Part shown: positions 2,104 to 21,219 of the stretch, piece after piece
Position numbering within the stretch: position 1 is the first letter of the stretch
How the letters are laid out: each line of letters opens with the position of its first letter
DNA from: a virus
DNA length: 21,219 nt
Direction: 5' to 3' (one strand)
IMG/VR virus record: IMGVR_UViG_3300037493_003238
Coordinates: 1-21,219 of that record
Position numbers and translations under genes: made by a program
The notes under the pieces: model-generated
Told to the model about the DNA's origin: nothing
What the model saw: the letters and a program-made list of their open reading frames with translations, nothing else
Database searches by the model: none

Positions 2104-3675
2104 TTAAACGGTTCCAGGGTACTCTGAAAGACGTACTCTATTGATATATCCTTCATCTGTATCATCAGCTAATTCAAGTGTAAATATGATCCAATAATCT
2201 GTATTATTTACAAGAGGAAAAGTTGTAAAATCTGCAGTGACTACTGCATCAGTTGCCGAAGCAGTAGATGGACTAAAAATTGTACCGCTTTCACTAACCC
2301 TAGTAAAATCTCTAAAATTTCTTGAATATAAATTATTTACTGCTGGTAAAGTTTCTCCTGTTGCAATTAAAGTTGCACCTAGTAAATCAGCATCAGTATT
2401 TATATATACTCTAGGTGTAATAATACCTCCTGCATATCTTCTTTTTACTCCCCAAGATAATTCAAAAGTCGAATCAGGACCAACTGATGGAAAAAAGAGA
2501 CCAAAAGTTATTGCTATAGTTTCGTCTGTAGTACCTGTAATTGGATCAGTATCTCCAGGTGCTGATATAATTACTTGAACTCCATCATTAGGAGGACCTG
2601 GAATTCCCTGTGGACCCTGTGGTCCCGTAGCTCCTTGTGCAGCAAGTAATGCCCAGTTTGCTGTATCTACTGAAGGGTCTGTAGGATCAGGTCCTACACC
2701 AGCTGGATTATAACAGAAATATGATGCGCCACTAAAAGACACAACATCATTTTCATTATAAACACTTGTATCCGACCAAATACTCTGCCAGCTTAATCCT
2801 GCTGGACCAACTGGTCCTGGAACACCTTGTGGTCCTGTCGAGCCTGTTGCGCCTGTAGCTCCTGTAGCACCTGTTGCTCCGTTAATACCTGGGACACCTT
2901 GAGATGCTAACAATGCCCAATTAAATGTGTCTACAGATGGGTCAGTTGTACCTGAAGTTGCGTTTACACAAAACCAAGAAGCTCCTCCAAAACTTACTGC
3001 GTCATCTAAATTATACGAATCTCCAGATACCCATACACCTTGCCAGTTTAACCCAGCAGGGCCTACAGGGCCAGATACTCCTTGAGGTCCAGTTGCTCCT
3101 GTTGGTCCTGTTGGTCCAAGTGGACCTTCTACTCCTGTAGGTCCTGTTAAACCAATTGGTCCAGCAATACCTGCAGGTCCTGGGTCACCTTGAATACCTT
3201 GTATACCTTGAATACCTTGAGGACCTACAGCTCCTTCAGAAGCTAATAGTGCCCAATTTGCAGTATCGGCAGCAGGATCAGTTGTACCTGATGTAGCATT
3301 AATACAAAAATATGAAGCACCGCTATAACCTACAGCATCGTCAGCTACATAAGAGGTTCCTGAAACCCAAGCTCCTTGCCACTCTAATCCTGCGGGACCT
3401 ACTGCACCTGCTGCTCCTTGTATTCCTTCAACTCCTGGCACTCCTGGCGAACCTGCTGTTCCTGTAGGACCTTGGTTACCTTGAGGACCTGCTATACCTT
3501 GAGCTCCTTGTGGGCCTTGAGGACCTGTAGGACCAGTAGGTCCCATATTAATATTATCTCCTTCTATGGACTTTATAATTCCTAAATCATTCTTATAAGA
3601 TAATTTTAAGGAATCTCTATCCCAAAAGATCTCTTGATTATTAGCTACTCTAGGATTTTTTATTTCGTAATTCAT
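2104..3675 (-). CDS. Collagen-like fibre with three carbohydrate-binding-like modules
   Basis: 523 residues in an alternating layout: N-terminal anchor (1-44); Gly-X-Y repeats at 45-96, 148-208, 260-293 and 348-362; three similar 51-54 residue modules at 97-147, 209-259 and 294-347; and a unique C-terminal domain (363-523). Each module has two N-terminal Trp, a Y....DDAV or Y....NDVV segment, GASYFC or GASWFC, a TDP turn and a final NWALLA. This spacing resembles the CBM5/12 chitin-binding family. Collagen-like repeats form trimeric rods in phage fibres, so the protein is probably a trimeric fibre carrying stacked sugar-binding modules for host attachment. The C-terminal domain would be the tip. 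Sugar binding is inferred from motif spacing. Confidence 0.85.
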   Translation of the reverse strand: MNYEIKNPRVANNQEIFWDRDSLKLSYKNDLGIIKSIEGDNINMGPTGPTGPQGPQGAQGIAGPQGNQGPTGTAGSPGVPGVEGIQGAAGAVGPAGLEWQGAWVSGTSYVADDAVGYSGASYFCINATSGTTDPAADTANWALLASEGAVGPQGIQGIQGIQGDPGPAGIAGPIGLTGPTGVEGPLGPTGPTGATGPQGVSGPVGPAGLNWQGVWVSGDSYNLDDAVSFGGASWFCVNATSGTTDPSVDTFNWALLASQGVPGINGATGATGATGATGSTGPQGVPGPVGPAGLSWQSIWSDTSVYNENDVVSFSGASYFCYNPAGVGPDPTDPSVDTANWALLAAQGATGPQGPQGIPGPPNDGVQVIISAPGDTDPITGTTDETIAITFGLFFPSVGPDSTFELSWGVKRRYAGGIITPRVYINTDADLLGATLIATGETLPAVNNLYSRNFRDFTRVSESGTIFSPSTASATDAVVTADFTTFPLVNNTDYWIIFTLELADDTDEGYINRVRLSEYPGTV

Positions 3676-3677
3676 GA

Positions 3678-4619
3678 TTAAGAATTTAGTAATTTTTTGA
3701 TTTGACTGTATGTAAGATTATTATAATCTGTAGTATTGTAAGCAATGTCTCTAGTATCGTAGCAGTTTAAAATCTCTAAAGCTCTGCGTTGGTTTTTAAG
3801 ATTATCTAAATCGTCACAGCATGTAAAATCGCCGTATTGTATTTTATTTAAATAACTTAAGACTTGCTTTGAAAACTCACATTGCTTTTCCCAAACTAGT
3901 TTATCAAAGCATGCTTGATTATCTTCATTAGTAGTAGTATAGTTTTCGGGTTGAAAACAAATATGTCCGCCGTTATCAAGACTTGGCCATATTAATAAAC
4001 CTTCGCTATCTTGAAGCATAATTCCTAAAGGCTCTGCTCCTGGAGTATATGTTGAAAATATTTGATTATTGAATATATATAAAATAGAAGCAATAAAATA
4101 TTGCCCTGTTCCTGATACAGTAAGTCCCGAATTATTTTGAAAATAACTGACAGGTTGTCCTACATAAAGATTTGTTAAATCCATATCTAGATATAACAAA
4201 TAATAAGTATATGGAGTTAAATAAAGAGGAGGCGGACTAGTAACAGATTCCCAAGTTGTACACACGGGCGCTGGCGTACATGCGTAAGTAGTCATGAAAG
4301 AAAGTATGCCGTCTTCTAAAACAGATACAACTACCCATTCTGTTCCGCCATATTCTTCTGAATTTCCTGGGCAATCTAAATCTTCAGAGTTAGGTAAATA
4401 TGCTATAACAACGTCATCTTCATCTACAATTACCCATTGAGAGTCTTGGTATTGCCAAGTAAATACGCCGTAATATGCATCAGTATATGTATAAGAACTA
4501 TGGCCATTAATATCAGGTCCTTGAGTAGGAACTGCAGGACCTACACGAATTATAGTACCGCCAGTAGCTTCTGTAGCAGCTAATGTGTAAATAAATGATA
4601 TGTCGCAGTTACATGCCAT
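3678..4619 (-). CDS. Tail/fibre-region protein with Cys-rich start and helical C-terminus
   Basis: 313 residues opening with MACNCD. The first ~220 residues are rich in Tyr, Trp, Thr and Gly and look like beta-sheet adhesin sequence. The last ~90 residues are helical with spaced cysteines (CFDKLVW, CEFSKQVLSYL, FTCCDDLDNL, EILNCYDT). That tail resembles the C-terminus of the 277-residue protein at 5240-6073, which suggests a shared attachment or assembly domain. It starts at the last base of the preceding gene's stop (TAATG) and lies 2 bp before the collagen-like fibre gene. The likely role is a tail or baseplate adhesin component. I recognise no specific family. Confidence 0.75.
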   Translation of the reverse strand: MACNCDISFIYTLAATEATGGTIIRVGPAVPTQGPDINGHSSYTYTDAYYGVFTWQYQDSQWVIVDEDDVVIAYLPNSEDLDCPGNSEEYGGTEWVVVSVLEDGILSFMTTYACTPAPVCTTWESVTSPPPLYLTPYTYYLLYLDMDLTNLYVGQPVSYFQNNSGLTVSGTGQYFIASILYIFNNQIFSTYTPGAEPLGIMLQDSEGLLIWPSLDNGGHICFQPENYTTTNEDNQACFDKLVWEKQCEFSKQVLSYLNKIQYGDFTCCDDLDNLKNQRRALEILNCYDTRDIAYNTTDYNNLTYSQIKKLLNS

Positions 4620-5233
4620 TATCCTAGTTTAACAACTTTAAAAATACCGCCTTGTAAATAAGCATCTGATGGTTTTGTAGAAGTACTGTAAATATCTATG
4701 ATATCTCCTGCGTCTAAACTTACATGTACCATAGTAGTTAAATTAAATGCTAATGGTAAAAACTCAACAGTTGCTGCAGTAACTCCTTTAATACAATTAC
4801 TATCTATTTGAATGCCGTTTAAATAAATATCTGCAAAAACACTATGATAATTAACTTCGTCAAATGTCATGACAATACTAGACATAAAAGTAATTTCATA
4901 ATCAGCAGTGGGTGTTAATGCGGGCACTGTGTAACTAAAAGGACTTAAGCCCGTATATACAGGACTTTCTCCTGATGTATTAGCTCCGATTTCATCAGTA
5001 ATATATTCTACTACTCCCCAATCACCGTTTACTCCATTTGTTCCATTAGTTCCATTAGTTCCTGCAGGTCCAGTAGGTCCTGGAGGGCCTGTAAGATTAG
5101 GGCTTACGTAAATGGTTCCATCAGTAAATAAATAAGTAAAAGTTCCATTACCATTAGAAGTAATTGAAACAATACCACGGCCATCAGTGCCACTTAAAAG
5201 AGTTATCTCTTTGCAATCTTTACATCCACACAT
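4619..5233 (-). CDS. Short collagen-like fibre protein with C-terminal beta domain
   Basis: 204 residues. The N-terminus has a Cys-x-Cys-x-x-Cys cluster (MCGCKDCKEITLL) followed by a small beta segment with GTFTYLFTDGT. A short collagen-like stretch (about residues 48-70: GPPGPTGPAG, then GTNGTNG repeats) leads to a ~130-residue beta-rich C-terminal domain, which may be a trimeric TNF/C1q-type jelly roll. This layout (capsid or tail anchor, triple-helix rod, globular head) is typical of phage fibres. The stop overlaps the next start (TAATG). The cysteine cluster at the N-terminus is shared in style with neighbouring genes and may form the docking site. Confidence 0.75.
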   Translation of the reverse strand: MCGCKDCKEITLLSGTDGRGIVSITSNGNGTFTYLFTDGTIYVSPNLTGPPGPTGPAGTNGTNGTNGVNGDWGVVEYITDEIGANTSGESPVYTGLSPFSYTVPALTPTADYEITFMSSIVMTFDEVNYHSVFADIYLNGIQIDSNCIKGVTAATVEFLPLAFNLTTMVHVSLDAGDIIDIYSTSTKPSDAYLQGGIFKVVKLG

Positions 5234-7493: not shown

Positions 7494-8264
7494 TTATTCG
7501 AGGTCCTTAAAGCCCTCTATTATTTGCATTTTTTGGTCTTTAGTTCGTTGCATCATTAAATCTGTTGCAATGTCTATTATTACTCTGTGTGTAGATTCTT
7601 GTAATTCACAATTGCTTTGGTTAGCAGGAGTGTTTCTATCTACTACGATGTCTATTGGATTTTTTACATATCGTATATGATAAGTAAGAATGCCAAAGGT
7701 GCCATCGGTGAATAATTCATGACGTTTAGCTGTTGCAGGAAGAGACGGGTTAATACCTGTCGTAGTCCTAGAAAAGTTAGAGCGCCATATTCTACAAGTA
7801 CCATAAGACTTATAGAAAGGTCTTTTGTATTTACTCCAATTAAATCTTTGCATCTCGTTATGAGCTACAGTGATTATATAAGCGTAAATTGGCTCTTCGC
7901 CATTTGTGCCACATACTGTTTTATCTATGACACATTCTTCATAGATAGTGTACATGTGGTCACTCGGTAAATCAAAGAACTTCCCAGTTACATTGGAGTT
8001 AACTATAACTCCAGCTTGTGAAGCTGAGGGAGTTAAGGATGGAGCATCTTCAACTAATGCTCCAAATCCTTGGTCCCTAATTTCTGTTTCTTCGAATCCT
8101 TTCCCCTCACGGTTGTTATTCTCATCGAAGAATTTTTTGACATAAAACATTTGAGCTTCTGATAGAGCTGAGGACAATTCAAAGTCTTCATACCCAGGCG
8201 AACCATAACTAGCCGATCTGTCTAGTTTTAATTCGAGTTCATTAGCCATTTCGTTTGCAGTCAT
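7494..8264 (-). CDS. Head-tail adaptor (connector) protein
   Basis: 256 residues. Near the C-terminus a strand motif (YHIRYVKNPIDIV) is followed by CELQESTHRVIIDIATDLM, the ending I associate with adaptor proteins of Bacteroidota phages that dock under the portal. The N-terminal half contains a predicted helix (EFELKLDRS-type region) and a FFDLPSDHMYTIYEECV segment. In the virion such proteins form the ring between the portal and the tail. Its place after the capsid genes and before a tail-type gene fits. It starts 6 bp after the preceding stop. Family recognition is by motif memory and not by search. Confidence 0.65.
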   Translation of the reverse strand: MTANEMANELELKLDRSASYGSPGYEDFELSSALSEAQMFYVKKFFDENNNREGKGFEETEIRDQGFGALVEDAPSLTPSASQAGVIVNSNVTGKFFDLPSDHMYTIYEECVIDKTVCGTNGEEPIYAYIITVAHNEMQRFNWSKYKRPFYKSYGTCRIWRSNFSRTTTGINPSLPATAKRHELFTDGTFGILTYHIRYVKNPIDIVVDRNTPANQSNCELQESTHRVIIDIATDLMMQRTKDQKMQIIEGFKDLE

Positions 8265-8270
8265 CTTTTA

Positions 8271-9218
8271 TTATTTTTTTGCTAGTTCAATCTTAGCTTT
8301 TATTCTCATTTTTACTTCTTGGTTATCTGGGTTCATTAAGTAACCGATAACATCAGTTAAATCACCTAACTCAGAACCATTGTCAAGAGTATATCGTTTC
8401 TCTCCTTTACGAATAATCGCTCCTGCTTCTGTAGCTTCTTGTACAAAGATACGCTCTTGATATTGTGGATGATTAACAATCTCTAAGAAATAATTAGGAT
8501 TACTATCCACAATGTTTAGTACTTCGTTTTTTAACCATTCGTCAGAGGCAGTTGCAGGAATTGTACGTCCTAAAGACTTAATAAAACCTATCGTAGCTTT
8601 GCGACTATTGGTTACTTCTGCAAACTTAATATAAGCATCTGCTCTTACGTTTGCTTCTTCAAGTTTCTTAGAAGTTACTTTGCTTTCATCTACAATCATA
8701 AACTCATAAGTTGCTTTAAGTACTCGCTCATCGTAAGACGGTGATACTAGCATCTTGTTAGAAAGTAGAATATGATACTTTAACATATCTAAAGAAAGAT
8801 TAAGATTTAAGGTCGTTCCTTCTTTCGTAAGAATCACGCGCCCGCGTCTGTCTGTTCTCCAGAAATTAGTATCCTGTGGCAAAGTAGGATTTAAATTAAT
8901 TCCTAACTCTTTTTCAAAGAACTCTTTTTGAGTCATCCCGTTTGGATGGCTCTCTTCATACTTTTGAATTAATACTCGACGTTGATCGTCTAATATTACT
9001 TTCACTCCTCCGCCACGCATCTCACTGTTAAGTGGAACTTGATAGCTTCGTTTTACTCTGTTTAGCAAGAACGGGTCTTTCGATTTGTCCTGTCCTTGTA
9101 CTAATAAGTTACTCCATTTCCCTGATGATTCTACAGGCTTTACGCTAACAATTCTATCTTGTAAGAATGTACCGTAAACTTTTTTTGTTGCTGTTGCTGT
9201 CTCCATTTTTGCTGTCAT
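8271..9218 (-). CDS. Conserved virion protein downstream of the capsid gene
   Basis: 315 residues, mixed alpha/beta, with an N-terminal basic segment and a helical C-terminal half (EATEAGAIIRKGEKRYTLDN near the end, finishing MRIKAKIELAKK). No enzymatic motif is visible. It sits between the major capsid gene and the adaptor gene, where crAss-like phages carry a conserved structural protein. The start at 9216-9218 follows AAAATAAATAA, and another in-frame ATG lies four codons on (MTAKMETATATKK). It may be an auxiliary capsid or cargo protein; the position is the main argument. Confidence 0.65.
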   Translation of the reverse strand: MTAKMETATATKKVYGTFLQDRIVSVKPVESSGKWSNLLVQGQDKSKDPFLLNRVKRSYQVPLNSEMRGGGVKVILDDQRRVLIQKYEESHPNGMTQKEFFEKELGINLNPTLPQDTNFWRTDRRGRVILTKEGTTLNLNLSLDMLKYHILLSNKMLVSPSYDERVLKATYEFMIVDESKVTSKKLEEANVRADAYIKFAEVTNSRKATIGFIKSLGRTIPATASDEWLKNEVLNIVDSNPNYFLEIVNHPQYQERIFVQEATEAGAIIRKGEKRYTLDNGSELGDLTDVIGYLMNPDNQEVKMRIKAKIELAKK

Positions 9219-19390: not shown

Positions 19391-19587
19391 TTTGATAGTA
19401 CAAATATCATAATAATAATGATACTATCCAAATTTGATAGTCGAAATATAAAAGTTTGATAGAAGAAGAAATAGTAGGTGTATCTACTAGGAAATGTGAA
19501 TAATAATAGTTATGAGACGTACTATCACTTCCATGGTAGTCGTACTATCATTGCGTGTTATGTTATTACTATCACTCTAATGATAGT
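19391..19587. promoter_or_regulatory. ACTATC/GATAGT operator cluster in the divergent region
   Basis: The exact hexamer occurs seven times, as GATAGT at 19394, 19436 and 19582 and as ACTATC at 19423, 19521, 19544 and 19568, with a near copy GATAGA at 19458. They form inverted repeats: 19393-19409 (TGATA, 7 nt, TATCA), 19423-19441 (ACTATC, 7 nt, GATAGT) and 19568-19587 (ACTATC, 8 nt, GATAGT). CGTACTATCA is directly repeated at 19518 and 19541, 23 bp apart, about two helical turns. Spacing suggests a dimeric regulator. The adjacent winged-helix protein is the natural candidate. Confidence 0.75.
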
Positions 19588-19858
19588 AATAGCCATACGG
19601 GAGTGGTAGTAAAATCTTGTAACTTGCTTATATAAAGCACATTAACTTTTTTAAATTACTACATAGATAACCTATGAAATAGGTATATGCGTATCTAACC
19701 CTTGGTATCATTGGTTTGTAGGAATTTTTTTATATATTTTTTTTCAGAATTCTTTCAGATGTGACTGTCGTGGTTACCACCTAAAACAATCACCCCTACT
19801 AAAGTTGGGCGCGGGGAAAATCCCCCCGTCATTACACATTCCCTAATACCTAGAACCC
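19588..19858. other. AT-rich intergenic segment, then GC-rich leader of the 101-codon ORF
   Basis: No gene is seen. 19626-19638 (GCTT...AAGC) and 19670-19684 (ACCTAT-GAA-ATAGGT) are small hairpins. Long T runs fill about 19725-19745. From about 19760 composition shifts to GC-rich: GTGGTTACCAC (19770-19780) is a perfect palindrome, and CGGGG/CCCCG at 19812-19828 is a strong hairpin 31 nt before the ATG. No confident promoter boxes are visible; TATCATTGG near 19706 is only a weak match to the Bacteroidota -7 box. Confidence 0.5.
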
Positions 19859-20164
19859 ATGGCTCTTAACCGTTCCCTCATTTCAGACCAGATTAAAATC
19901 TACGGTCAGAAACTCTACGTCGAAATCGCTAACCTCGGCACGCTTGCGCCAGACGAGTACACGCTGATGCCTGACGCTCGTTCAATCGACTGCGGCGACG
20001 GGCTCTTTGCCTCTATCCGTCAAGCGACTATCGACGCAGGCTTCGACGCTGACTACGTATTCACCGTTGGCGAATTCGAAGCACAGCGCGATGCCGACGG
20101 TACACGCGAAGACGGTACGACATGGACCGTTGCCAAAGGCAAGCGCGTCCTTATGGCGTACTAA
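19859..20164 (+). CDS. GC-rich 101-codon ORF of unknown function
   Basis: 101 residues beginning MALNRSLISDQIKIYGQ and ending AKGKRVLMAY; acidic, no membrane segment, probably alpha/beta. I count roughly 56% G+C against about one-third in neighbouring genes, with C- and G-ending codons (CTC, GTC, GAC, GGC, ACG) that the other genes avoid. It is the first rightward ORF after the operator cluster, with a hairpin 6 nt past its stop, so it looks like a self-contained expressed cassette. I recognise no family. The composition points to recent acquisition from a GC-richer source, or a joined foreign segment in the assembly. A clean frame with sensible codons argues against chance. Confidence 0.65.
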   Translation: MALNRSLISDQIKIYGQKLYVEIANLGTLAPDEYTLMPDARSIDCGDGLFASIRQATIDAGFDADYVFTVGEFEAQRDADGTREDGTTWTVAKGKRVLMAY

Positions 20165-20170
20165 CCCATT

Positions 20171-20197
20171 GGAGCACCACGCAAGTGGTGTTCCTTT
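20171..20197 (+). terminator. Terminator-like GNRA hairpin after the GC-rich ORF
   Basis: GGAGCACCAC (20171-20180) pairs with GTGGTGTTCC (20185-20194) over 10 bp, including one G-U pair, around a GCAA tetraloop of the GNRA class, and is followed by TTT. It begins 6 nt after the stop codon. The short T tract makes termination leaky at best; it may instead be the first helix of the structured RNA that follows. Confidence 0.6.
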
Positions 20198-20377
20198 GAC
20201 GCAGTAACCCTGAATAGCGTTCTAATCCTTGCATAAAGAAGGCGTGACCACGGCGAGAGTGTGGTATTCTTTACCCTTAACACCCTAATACTGAGTACTA
20301 TGGAAACATATGTGATTCTTTCTGGTGTGGTTACTAATCTCAATTGGTTAGTTAACCCTAATGCCTAAGGCATTGAT

Positions 20378-20411
20378 AAGTCATACTCTTTTATATTAAA
20401 GGGTATGGCTT
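20378..20411 (+). other. 14-bp hairpin of the structured RNA
   Basis: 20378-20391 pairs with 20398-20411 over 14 contiguous base pairs with two U-G pairs, closing a 6-nt loop (TATATT). It immediately precedes the first copy of the duplicated RNA unit. Confidence 0.75.
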
Positions 20412-20417
20412 AATTTA

Positions 20418-20592
20418 ATTAATGTATTCAACTCGGTGGCCGATTTATCTCTCGGAGTTGATACATTAATAATACTCTCATCCAATTGCAGGATAAGATT
20501 GCCATATAAACCCTTCATTAAGTAAGGTAACTTCATCGCCTTCGGGATTGGGAGTAAGCAATATAGTTAAGGGTTGCAACCTTATGAGAGTA
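20418..20592 (+). repeat. Duplicated RNA unit, copy 1
   Basis: Helix ATTAATGTAT/ATACATTAAT (20418-20427/20461-20470), extended by CAACTC/GAGTTG, is followed directly by CTCTCATCCAATTGCAGG and closes with AAGGGTTGCAACCTTATGAG (from 20569). Inside lie a UUCG-capped stem (about 20530-20555) and AACCCTT/AAGGGTT (20509-20515/20569-20575). Copy 2 is at 20647-20849. Confidence 0.75.
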
Positions 20593-20646
20593 CGAAAGGA
20601 CGTGATATTCGTCGTATACCTGAGCATGTAGATAAACTGCTCATTC

Positions 20647-20849
20647 ATTAATGTTGTAATAGCAAACTTAAATAACTTGCGAAAACTATTGTATGCTCAT
20701 ATCGTGAGACCCGAAGGGCACAAAACATATGCTGACACTTAGAGTACAATAGAATTACAACATTATTAATTCTCTCATCCAAGCAGGTCTATAGTGTCTA
20801 ACCATTTGGAAACACATTATATTGCAAGGATTGCAACCTTGTGAGAGAG
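20647..20849 (+). repeat. Duplicated RNA unit, copy 2
   Basis: Helix 20649-20660/20754-20765 shares ATTAATGT and ACATTA with copy 1. It is followed by CTCTCATCCAAGCAGG (from 20772) and closes with AAGGATTGCAACCTTGTGAG (from 20826). The interior differs: it holds GCAA/TTGC (20662-20665/20677-20680), CTATTGTA/TACAATAG (20686-20693/20745-20752), CATAT/ATATG and a GTG-AGA-CCC-GAA-GGG-CAC stem at 20704-20721. Confidence 0.75.
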
Positions 20850-20857
20850 CCATTTAT

Positions 20858-20957
20858 AAGATAAGTTGGGAAGGGTACTTAGTGACCCATAAGAGCCAGG
20901 CTGACCGAAGGGAGAGCTACAATGATAAACAACGGCTGTATGATCCCAACTTATCTT
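20858..20957 (+). other. 14-bp closed multibranch domain of the structured RNA
   Basis: AAGATAAGTTGGGA (20858-20871) pairs perfectly with TCCCAACTTATCTT (20944-20957). Inside are GGGTAC/GTGACCC (20873-20888) and a nested AGCC/GGCT (20894-20897/20934-20937) arm carrying a CC-GAA-GGG loop, giving a three-way junction. Confidence 0.75.
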
Positions 20958-20964
20958 TTGCTAA

Positions 20965-21063
20965 TGCACCATTTCTACTTCCCAAGGGTAGACAGTTATA
21001 ATTCTTGAATGACAAGGAATTACGATATAGTTATCGTATGGACAAAGCCTATAACTGAGTGCA
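20965..21063 (+). other. 3'-terminal junction domain of the structured RNA
   Basis: TGCAC (20965-20969) pairs with GTGCA (21059-21063). Within it are hairpin CTAC..GTAG (20975-20991), helix CAGTTATA/TATAACTG (20993-21000/21050-21057), and two hairpins inside that: ATTCTTG/CAAGGAAT (21001-21020) and TACGATA/TATCGTA (21021-21038) with a UAGU loop. A T-rich run (TTTTATTATTT) follows and could end the RNA, though no canonical terminator is present. Confidence 0.7.
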
Positions 21064-21097
21064 GAGGGATTTTATTATTTACCTAAAACTTAAAGCC

Positions 21098-21219
21098 ATG
21101 AACCAAGAAAAACTATCAAACATTGTTGTAGACACAAGAGATTTAAAATCGTTTTGCCATAAACTATCTAGACTTGCTGAGAATGATACAGCAACTGATA
21201 GTTTTAAATTCACACAGAA
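21098..21219 (+). CDS. Start of a rightward gene, cut by the window edge
   Basis: An ATG at 21098 opens a frame that stays open for 40 codons to the last base (MNQEKLSNIVVDTRDLKSFC at the start). The leader CTAAAACTTAAAGCC is A-rich and lacks a Shine-Dalgarno, like the other genes here, and base composition is phage-like. It begins about 33 nt after the structured RNA ends, so it may be transcribed together with it. Too little is visible to name a function. It is probably the first gene of the rightward (early or replication) arm. Confidence 0.65.
   Translation, partial: MNQEKLSNIVVDTRDLKSFCHKLSRLAENDTATDSFKFTQ

Follow-up and report, generated by a model that had tools for sequence, protein, structure and literature searches.

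A structured plus-strand RNA of exchangeable modules in the rightward operon of a crAss-like phage

Introduction

GOLLD and ROOL are large structured phage RNAs that have long been a puzzle, and GOLLD assembles into a 14-mer RNA nanocage. GOLLD is found in phages and prophages, is often above 800 nt in length, lies near tRNA genes and consists of a conserved and a less conserved half, while ROOL, a large phage RNA of unknown function, contains pseudoknots, kissing loops and a variable linker (PMC12286853). Theta (HDV-like) ribozymes, which occur in gut phages next to tRNAs, are RNA processing elements (PMC10879173).

The window analysed in this study is a stretch of 21,219 nt (IMG/VR record IMGVR_UViG_3300037493_003238), and near its right end lies a non-coding region built from several structured modules, among them two recurrent three-way junctions that we call joints A and B. 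The RNA resembles GOLLD in being a giant structured phage RNA, but it has no Rfam match, its modules stand in a row with joints repeated within a locus and arms exchanged from genome to genome, and tRNAs are only sometimes near. From ROOL it differs in the same lack of an Rfam match and in being a mosaic of modules rather than a single conserved fold, and the theta ribozymes, although likewise phage RNAs, have a structure and a neighbourhood different from those of joints A and B. Being large, structured and phage-borne, the RNA can be grouped with GOLLD and ROOL in a loose sense, but its shared, exchangeable modules set it apart. We found no description of these RNAs in a literature search whose coverage mostly excluded subscription papers and preprints, and they apparently represent a sizeable set of RNA families from crAss-like phages that is new to description.

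Results

Source phage and genomic setting

The window comes from a Crassvirales phage, as shown by matches of its TerL, portal and major head proteins to crAss-type PHROGs; among annotated TerL proteins the nearest, at 32%, belongs to Cellulophaga phage phi14:2 (Steigviridae by taxonomy). Structural genes point leftward, and beyond the hub begins a rightward operon in which the RNA stretch lies behind the 101-aa gene, in agreement with the first-pass annotation of this DNA, which had recognized the divergent hub of a Bacteroidota phage. The stretch is framed by the following features.

19859 to 20164, plus strand: first gene of the rightward operon, 101 aa (ORF list; one relative by scan, and the same gene family in relatives)
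20175 to 20190, plus strand: terminator-like hairpin CACCAC-GCAA-GUGGUG followed by UUCCUUU, 3' of the 101-aa gene (sequence reading)
21098 to 21219, plus strand: next operon gene, cut by the window end (ORF list; leader read from the sequence)

The 101-aa gene is kept in many relatives and lies outside the RNA, and relatives also have hairpins at the position of the terminator-like one, which in the window has a GCAA loop and a U-rich stretch directly 3'. Left of the 101-aa gene, two more stretches of the hub are conserved in many relatives, at about 19770-19830 and 19485-19690; they comprise GTGACTGTCGTGGTTACC...TTGGGCGCGGGGAAAATCCCC and the hairpin-rich TACTATCA region and are candidates for promoter or regulatory elements. 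Among the late genes of the window, 2104-3675 and 4619-5233 (both minus strand) encode proteins with collagen-like GPTGPTGPQ repeats.

Folding, strand and limits of the RNA

On the plus strand, 20180-21085 folds with -264 kcal/mol (z -6.56; 0 of 20 dinucleotide shuffles were as stable), against a weaker z of -3.78 for the minus strand. Imperfect pairs of the G-U rather than the A-C kind had been read earlier, from the window, as a mark of the plus strand, and the comparative alignments bear this out across relatives: the anchored stems of joints A and B hold 20 G-U cells and a single A-C cell, which supports the plus strand. Since the domains moreover recur in other phages with compensatory changes, the earlier call of a large structured plus-strand RNA is upheld. 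As judged from covariation in the joints and arm types, this RNA is base-paired, and 20369-21074 is almost certainly a structured plus-strand RNA.

Its limits and architecture differ from those first proposed. Whereas the RNA had been placed at 20230-21065, the fold of 20187-20293 is no better than chance (z 0.13), and the structured part covers about 20369-21074, or ~700 nt, with a 3' limit just before the next ATG (21098). The abundance of helices, of which at least twelve had been cited as a sign of structure, proved uninformative, because the minimum free energy (MFE) fold has 18 helices of at least 6 bp and shuffled sequences have 20.2 +/- 2.6; helix counting was therefore dropped as evidence. 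Nor did we accept the global MFE as the true structure, as it joins the repeated palindromic 3' joints of the two A copies with each other (20570-20583 with 20826-20840). In place of the single ornate fold with nested multibranch junctions that had been envisaged, the comparative data describe a mosaic string of separate, exchangeable domains, at least eight of them in a row on the plus strand.

Micropeptide ORF and its hairpins

At the 5' side of the array lie a small ORF and two hairpins.

20300 to 20368, plus strand: conserved micropeptide ORF, METYVILSGVVTNLNWLVNPNA, 22 aa (family of 26 distinct peptides)
20359 to 20375, plus strand: hairpin over the micropeptide stop codon, UAAUGCC-UAA-GGCAUUG (6-7 bp stem kept in relatives)
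20377 to 20412, plus strand: 15-bp hairpin AAGUCAUACUC..GGGUAUGGCUU behind the micropeptide (fold z -6.2 for 20369-20418)

The first-pass annotation had seen no credible ORF in the region. The 22-codon ORF nevertheless belongs to a family of peptides with the pattern GV[VI]T...W..N.N[AS]-stop and invariant G, T, W, N and N (a regex match in L091, taken as chance, is left out of the count), in which Gly, Thr, Asn and Ala are each encoded by several synonymous codons and codon differences fall mostly on the third position (2205, versus 1443 on the first and 957 on the second). The stop-codon hairpin is kept in 21 of 25 sequences with clear compensatory changes, its variants, formed by the last codons and the bases after the stop, including AAUGCU-UAA-AGCAUU, AACUCU-UAA-AGAGUU and ACGCAU..AUGCGU; the 15-bp hairpin co-occurs with the micropeptide in about 17-19 loci. 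Together, the three elements look like a leader peptide with an attenuator-like structure, which we take as a lead only. Leader peptides of the tnaC/erm type, which work with attenuation, are alike in having a short ORF with a conserved C-terminus and a stop-codon hairpin upstream of an RNA, but differ in that no regulated gene is known for the window micropeptide.

Joint A

Joint A, for which we built the covariance model R2, is a three-way junction closed by a stem of 8 bp; it holds a tiny CC/GG hairpin with AAGCA as its loop, an arm that can be exchanged, and a further hairpin of the form CAAGG-RUUGCAA-CCUUG. Its overall pattern is ACUCUCAUCC-AAGCA-GG ... arm ... CAAGG-RUUGCAA-CCUUG-UGAGAGU. 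The window has two copies.

20469 to 20596, plus strand: joint A copy 1 with its arm, ACUCUCAUCC-AAUUGCA-GG ... UAAGGGUUGCAACCUUAUGAGAGU (R2 E 1.1e-12, outside the training set)
20766 to 20853, plus strand: joint A copy 2 with its arm (R2 E 4.1e-15, within the training set)

The fold is fitted by 97 unique modules. In an alignment of 34 sequences, 5 of 15 pairs are changed on both sides, a value reached in 0 of 500 shuffles, and the closing pairs CA/UG are replaced by UG/CA in three relatives (L075, L112 and L131). L138 and L151 match the region of copy 2 (20762-20847) with 95% identity. By inference, the invariant loop RUUGCAA, which is palindromic, could form a kissing contact either with GCA in the AAGCA loop or with another molecule.

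Joint B

Joint B, present as a single copy and represented by the model R1, is likewise a three-way junction; the P2 loop UUCCC pairs with the 3' tail GGGA/G to form a pseudoknot, and a second exchangeable arm is held out. Its pattern is UAAUGCACC-AUU/ACAA-P2-UUCCCAAGG-P2'-CAGUUGUAAU ... arm ... AUUACAACUG-A-GUGCA-GA-GGG.

20958 to 21074, plus strand: joint B with its arm (45-sequence alignment with covariation; R1 E 7e-24, within the training set; fold z -2.8 for 20960-21074)
20965-20969/21059-21063, plus strand: P1
20974-20978/20988-20992, plus strand: P2, loop UUCCCAAGG
20993-21003/21047-21057, plus strand: P3
20980-20983/21066-21069, plus strand: pseudoknot (double changes)

About 30 core positions are conserved. 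In the alignment, 95.6% of the cells are paired and 14 of 25 pairs are changed on both sides, again with 0 of 500 shuffles as high. Covariation thus stands above both the shuffled and the slid controls: 114 cells are two-sided, whereas shuffling leaves 27 and sliding the partners never more than 29. All five pairs of P2 covary around an invariant loop, and the pseudoknot is CCC:GGG in 131 of 139 unique modules, with double changes to CAC:GTG in L266 and L280.

Further modules, arms and mosaic exchange

Between and beside the joints, the array contains four more structured modules.

20420 to 20468, plus strand: long hairpin arm of 17 bp (fold z -3.4 for 20419-20469; a different arm at a similar position in L010)
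20590 to 20643, plus strand: two short hairpins, GUACGAAAGG..CGUCGUAU and UGAGCAUG..CUGCUCA (further recurrent module)
20649 to 20765, plus strand: arm module with a 12-bp outer stem (fold z -3.05 for 20645-20768)
20858 to 20957, plus strand: arm module with a 14-bp outer stem GAUAAGUUGGGA..UCCCAACUUAUC (fold z -3.9 for 20852-20958)

Different parts of the array match different phages. The two-hairpin module (20594-20643) has matches at about 26 other loci and forms a 20-locus recurrent motif, the first arm module (20649-20765) is 78-83% identical in L160, L019, L090 and L256, and the second (20858-20957) has no relative among the fetched loci. Arms are diverse, with 32 types among 68 sequences of joint A and 113 among 134 of joint B. 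When joint A modules have similar arms, both flanks are dissimilar in 103 of 105 module pairs; conversely, 74 pairs have a common flank and a different arm. Within one arm type of eight sequences, 6 of 15 pairs show two-sided changes, from which it follows that the arms are structured too. In L036, which belongs to the lineage of the window (TerL 78%), the arm recurs in L144, whose portal is of a 917-919-aa type that is about 22% identical to the window portal (two members compared). All in all, the RNA is very probably a mosaic of modules exchanged between genomes.

The repertoire of modules exceeds A and B: on the reverse strand of L082, a repeated module GTCCGTT..CGGGGCTGA..AGCCAA occurs twice in one array (about 8085-8145 and 8700-8755), and other motifs recurrent in the loci of relatives are GGGAGCATGTGACCATGAAA and CAAGGTAACTTACACCTTG.

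Modules lie in non-coding spans with a median length of 684 nt (quartiles 431 and 948). Where A and B share one span, the order is AB in 34 cases, with one BA and one ABA. Joint B mostly comes last among the modules, and in many cases an ORF begins 30-50 nt 3' of it. The genes downstream of modules fall into 73 clusters among 156, which argues against a gene-linked cis element, and the riboswitch-like form of such an element, with a fixed downstream gene, was rejected on this ground.

Distribution among relatives

Related phages were searched for the RNA through a TerL scan, which gave 68 loci whose hub position was compared by nhmmer and blastn, and through pattern scans of IMG/VR. At the corresponding place in the hub, about 30 of the 68 loci resemble the RNA in patches, and the pattern scans located joint A in at least 119 contigs and joint B in at least 120; a control pattern of joint B whose spacer was lengthened by one base (6 N in place of 5) gave 6 matches in viral contigs and, with genome contigs included, still only a few. 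All 36 records examined whole carry a crAss portal. R1 matches 27 of them and R2 23, the strong matches falling at a single locus and on the other strand from the portal; R1 is absent in 9 of the 36 records, some of which are partial, and A and B are thus not in every relative. Portals of six module-bearing phages are 22-41% identical to that of the window.

Five annotated relatives (four Crassvirales and one Flavobacterium phage) gave no confident R1 or R2 match, so that no laboratory phage is at hand; R2 matches in the Bacteroides phages frurule and cr112_1 (E 0.03-0.6) were taken as chance. By blastn against 50,697 phage records, the RNA region had no match, and the joint B core had chance-level matches only in phage records. 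ARAGORN called a tRNA-Pyl (CUA anticodon) in L182 and L237, and TAG occurs inside the portal matches of G014 and G034, which suggests stop-codon reassignment in some of these phages.

Known RNA families and ribozymes

A scan of the window with Rfam 15, including the intron, RNase P and ribozyme models, returned no family at the gathering score, and ARAGORN found no tRNA or tmRNA gene, consistent with the absence of such elements noted at first pass. With lax filters up to E=10, Rfam gave only weak noise in the hub (19430-21219), neither GOLLD nor ROOL among it, and the GOLLD and ROOL models had no match in 47 module-bearing loci of relatives. Membership in GOLLD or ROOL was rejected on these results. 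Of the two options left by the first-pass annotation, a divergent member of the GOLLD/ROOL class or a new family, it is the new family that stands after the covariance-model search. tRNA genes occur in 55 of 201 loci, a few within 1 kb and most several kb off, with none in the window; the association is present without being systematic.

Self-cleaving ribozymes were found in relatives only, no hatchet, pistol, twister or other Rfam ribozyme being detected in the window.

L161:1792-1928 (-), L171:4453-4619 (-), L150:10327-10463 (+), L169:1122-1190 (+) and L251:855-923 (+): ribozymes in relatives (hatchet, pistol, weak twister-P1)

Hatchet scored above the cut-off in 7 of 77 records and pistol was found in 4 of 77, two of these above the cut-off; the weak twister-P1 is in L251. 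Hatchet-like sequence detected by blastn in 13 loci shares the strand of the modules in every case and precedes the first A or B by 0.5-1.4 kb, mostly with small ORFs in the gap. In two loci a twister-P1-like element is found 131 nt 5' of B, and in one a pistol 226 nt 5' of A. Such placement, upstream and on the module strand, suggests cleavage of the transcript ahead of the array in some genomes. In some relatives, hatchet, pistol and twister-P1 thus share the operon and strand of the array, but they stand next to the modules and not inside them, and none of their models matches joint A or B.

Discussion

The explanation that we favour, to which as a whole we give about an even chance, is that this phage, one of the aquatic-type Crassvirales, carries a mosaic plus-strand RNA array that works in trans as a scaffold or binding RNA of several domains. 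To judge by comparative sequence data, the plus strand is paired, joint B comes last near the next gene, arms and modules are exchanged, and module order is conserved. The array, a row of independent stem domains of ~700 nt starting right after the leader micropeptide, would be transcribed and made early in infection, and upstream self-cleaving ribozymes may trim the transcript in some genomes. The joints would then serve as a rigid frame from which the variable arms contact a varying partner, be it a host RNA, a host protein or a defence factor, and the conserved joint sequences could provide the homology by which arms are swapped between co-infecting phages. We hold the trans-acting role itself only tentatively. 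Arm exchange could also be near-neutral recombination, which counts against the favoured explanation.

The main rival is that the stem domains are intercistronic elements of a polycistronic early mRNA, where they space, protect or process the parts between tiny ORFs and have no function in trans. The frequent ORF start within 30-50 nt of a usually terminal joint B, the interleaving of modules with small ORFs, as in L010 and L012, and the upstream self-cleaving ribozymes, which point to mRNA processing, are all in its favour, and the small ORFs between which modules lie may belong to a single long mRNA, as a role at the mRNA level alone would have it. Pseudoknotted junctions, invariant loops and structured arms, however, go beyond what a spacer or stabilizer needs, the non-coding span is long although phage genomes are compact, and there is one locus per genome instead of one element per gene, so that we regard this reading as rather unlikely, if a serious one. 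The ribozymes in the neighbourhood could also be taken to mean that joint B (or A) is itself a new class of self-cleaving ribozyme cutting the early transcript, and a compact pseudoknotted three-way junction with a conserved core and a free arm would suit such a role. This seems improbable to us: the Rfam ribozyme models had no match, the topology of the joints is presumably unlike that of HDV, twister, pistol and hatchet, no catalytic pocket is apparent in joint A, and the known ribozymes occur in a minority of loci at a distance of 0.1-1.4 kb.

Similarly doubtful is a cis-regulatory element at the operon start, such as a riboswitch, a leader-peptide attenuator or a processive antiterminator. 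The early place in the rightward operon and the succession of leader micropeptide, stop-codon hairpin and 15-bp hairpin would fit, but the downstream genes are unrelated between genomes, and a riboswitch or put-type element would not normally have two A joints in one locus, variable arms and a length of ~700 nt; attenuation could apply to the micropeptide part only. Conserved ends around exchanged inserts resemble cassette borders, and one could imagine hairpin cassettes that act as recombination or insertion sites at the DNA level, with no role as RNA. The excess of G-U over A-C cells is not expected from a DNA hairpin, the strand is fixed relative to the operon and compensatory changes are found within the arms themselves, all of which make such an element very unlikely. 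Least credible of all is a divergent GOLLD or ROOL RNA. Size, phage origin and tRNA genes near some arrays are similar, but outside weak noise Rfam matched nothing in the RNA part of the hub up to E=10, the GOLLD and ROOL models matched nothing in the relatives' loci searched, and beads in a row of exchangeable modules are another architecture.

The covariance models of joints A and B are ready and permit a direct search for expression and for a cultivable phage. The shuffling of arms round fixed joints amounts to a natural experiment, in which the invariant joints speak for a shared core function and the arms for a factor that varies with the host. Joint motifs of 22 bases are found in more than 100 contigs, while portal proteins among such phages may diverge at over 70% of their positions. 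Phages at family-level distance might draw on a common pool of RNA parts, forming a combinatorial system, proposed here with reserve, in which pseudoknotted joints are both frame and recombination handles and arms are swapped for changing host targets. If true, this would be an RNA counterpart of the polymorphic protein systems that exchange cassettes, and its products would possibly be anti-defence or host-takeover RNAs.
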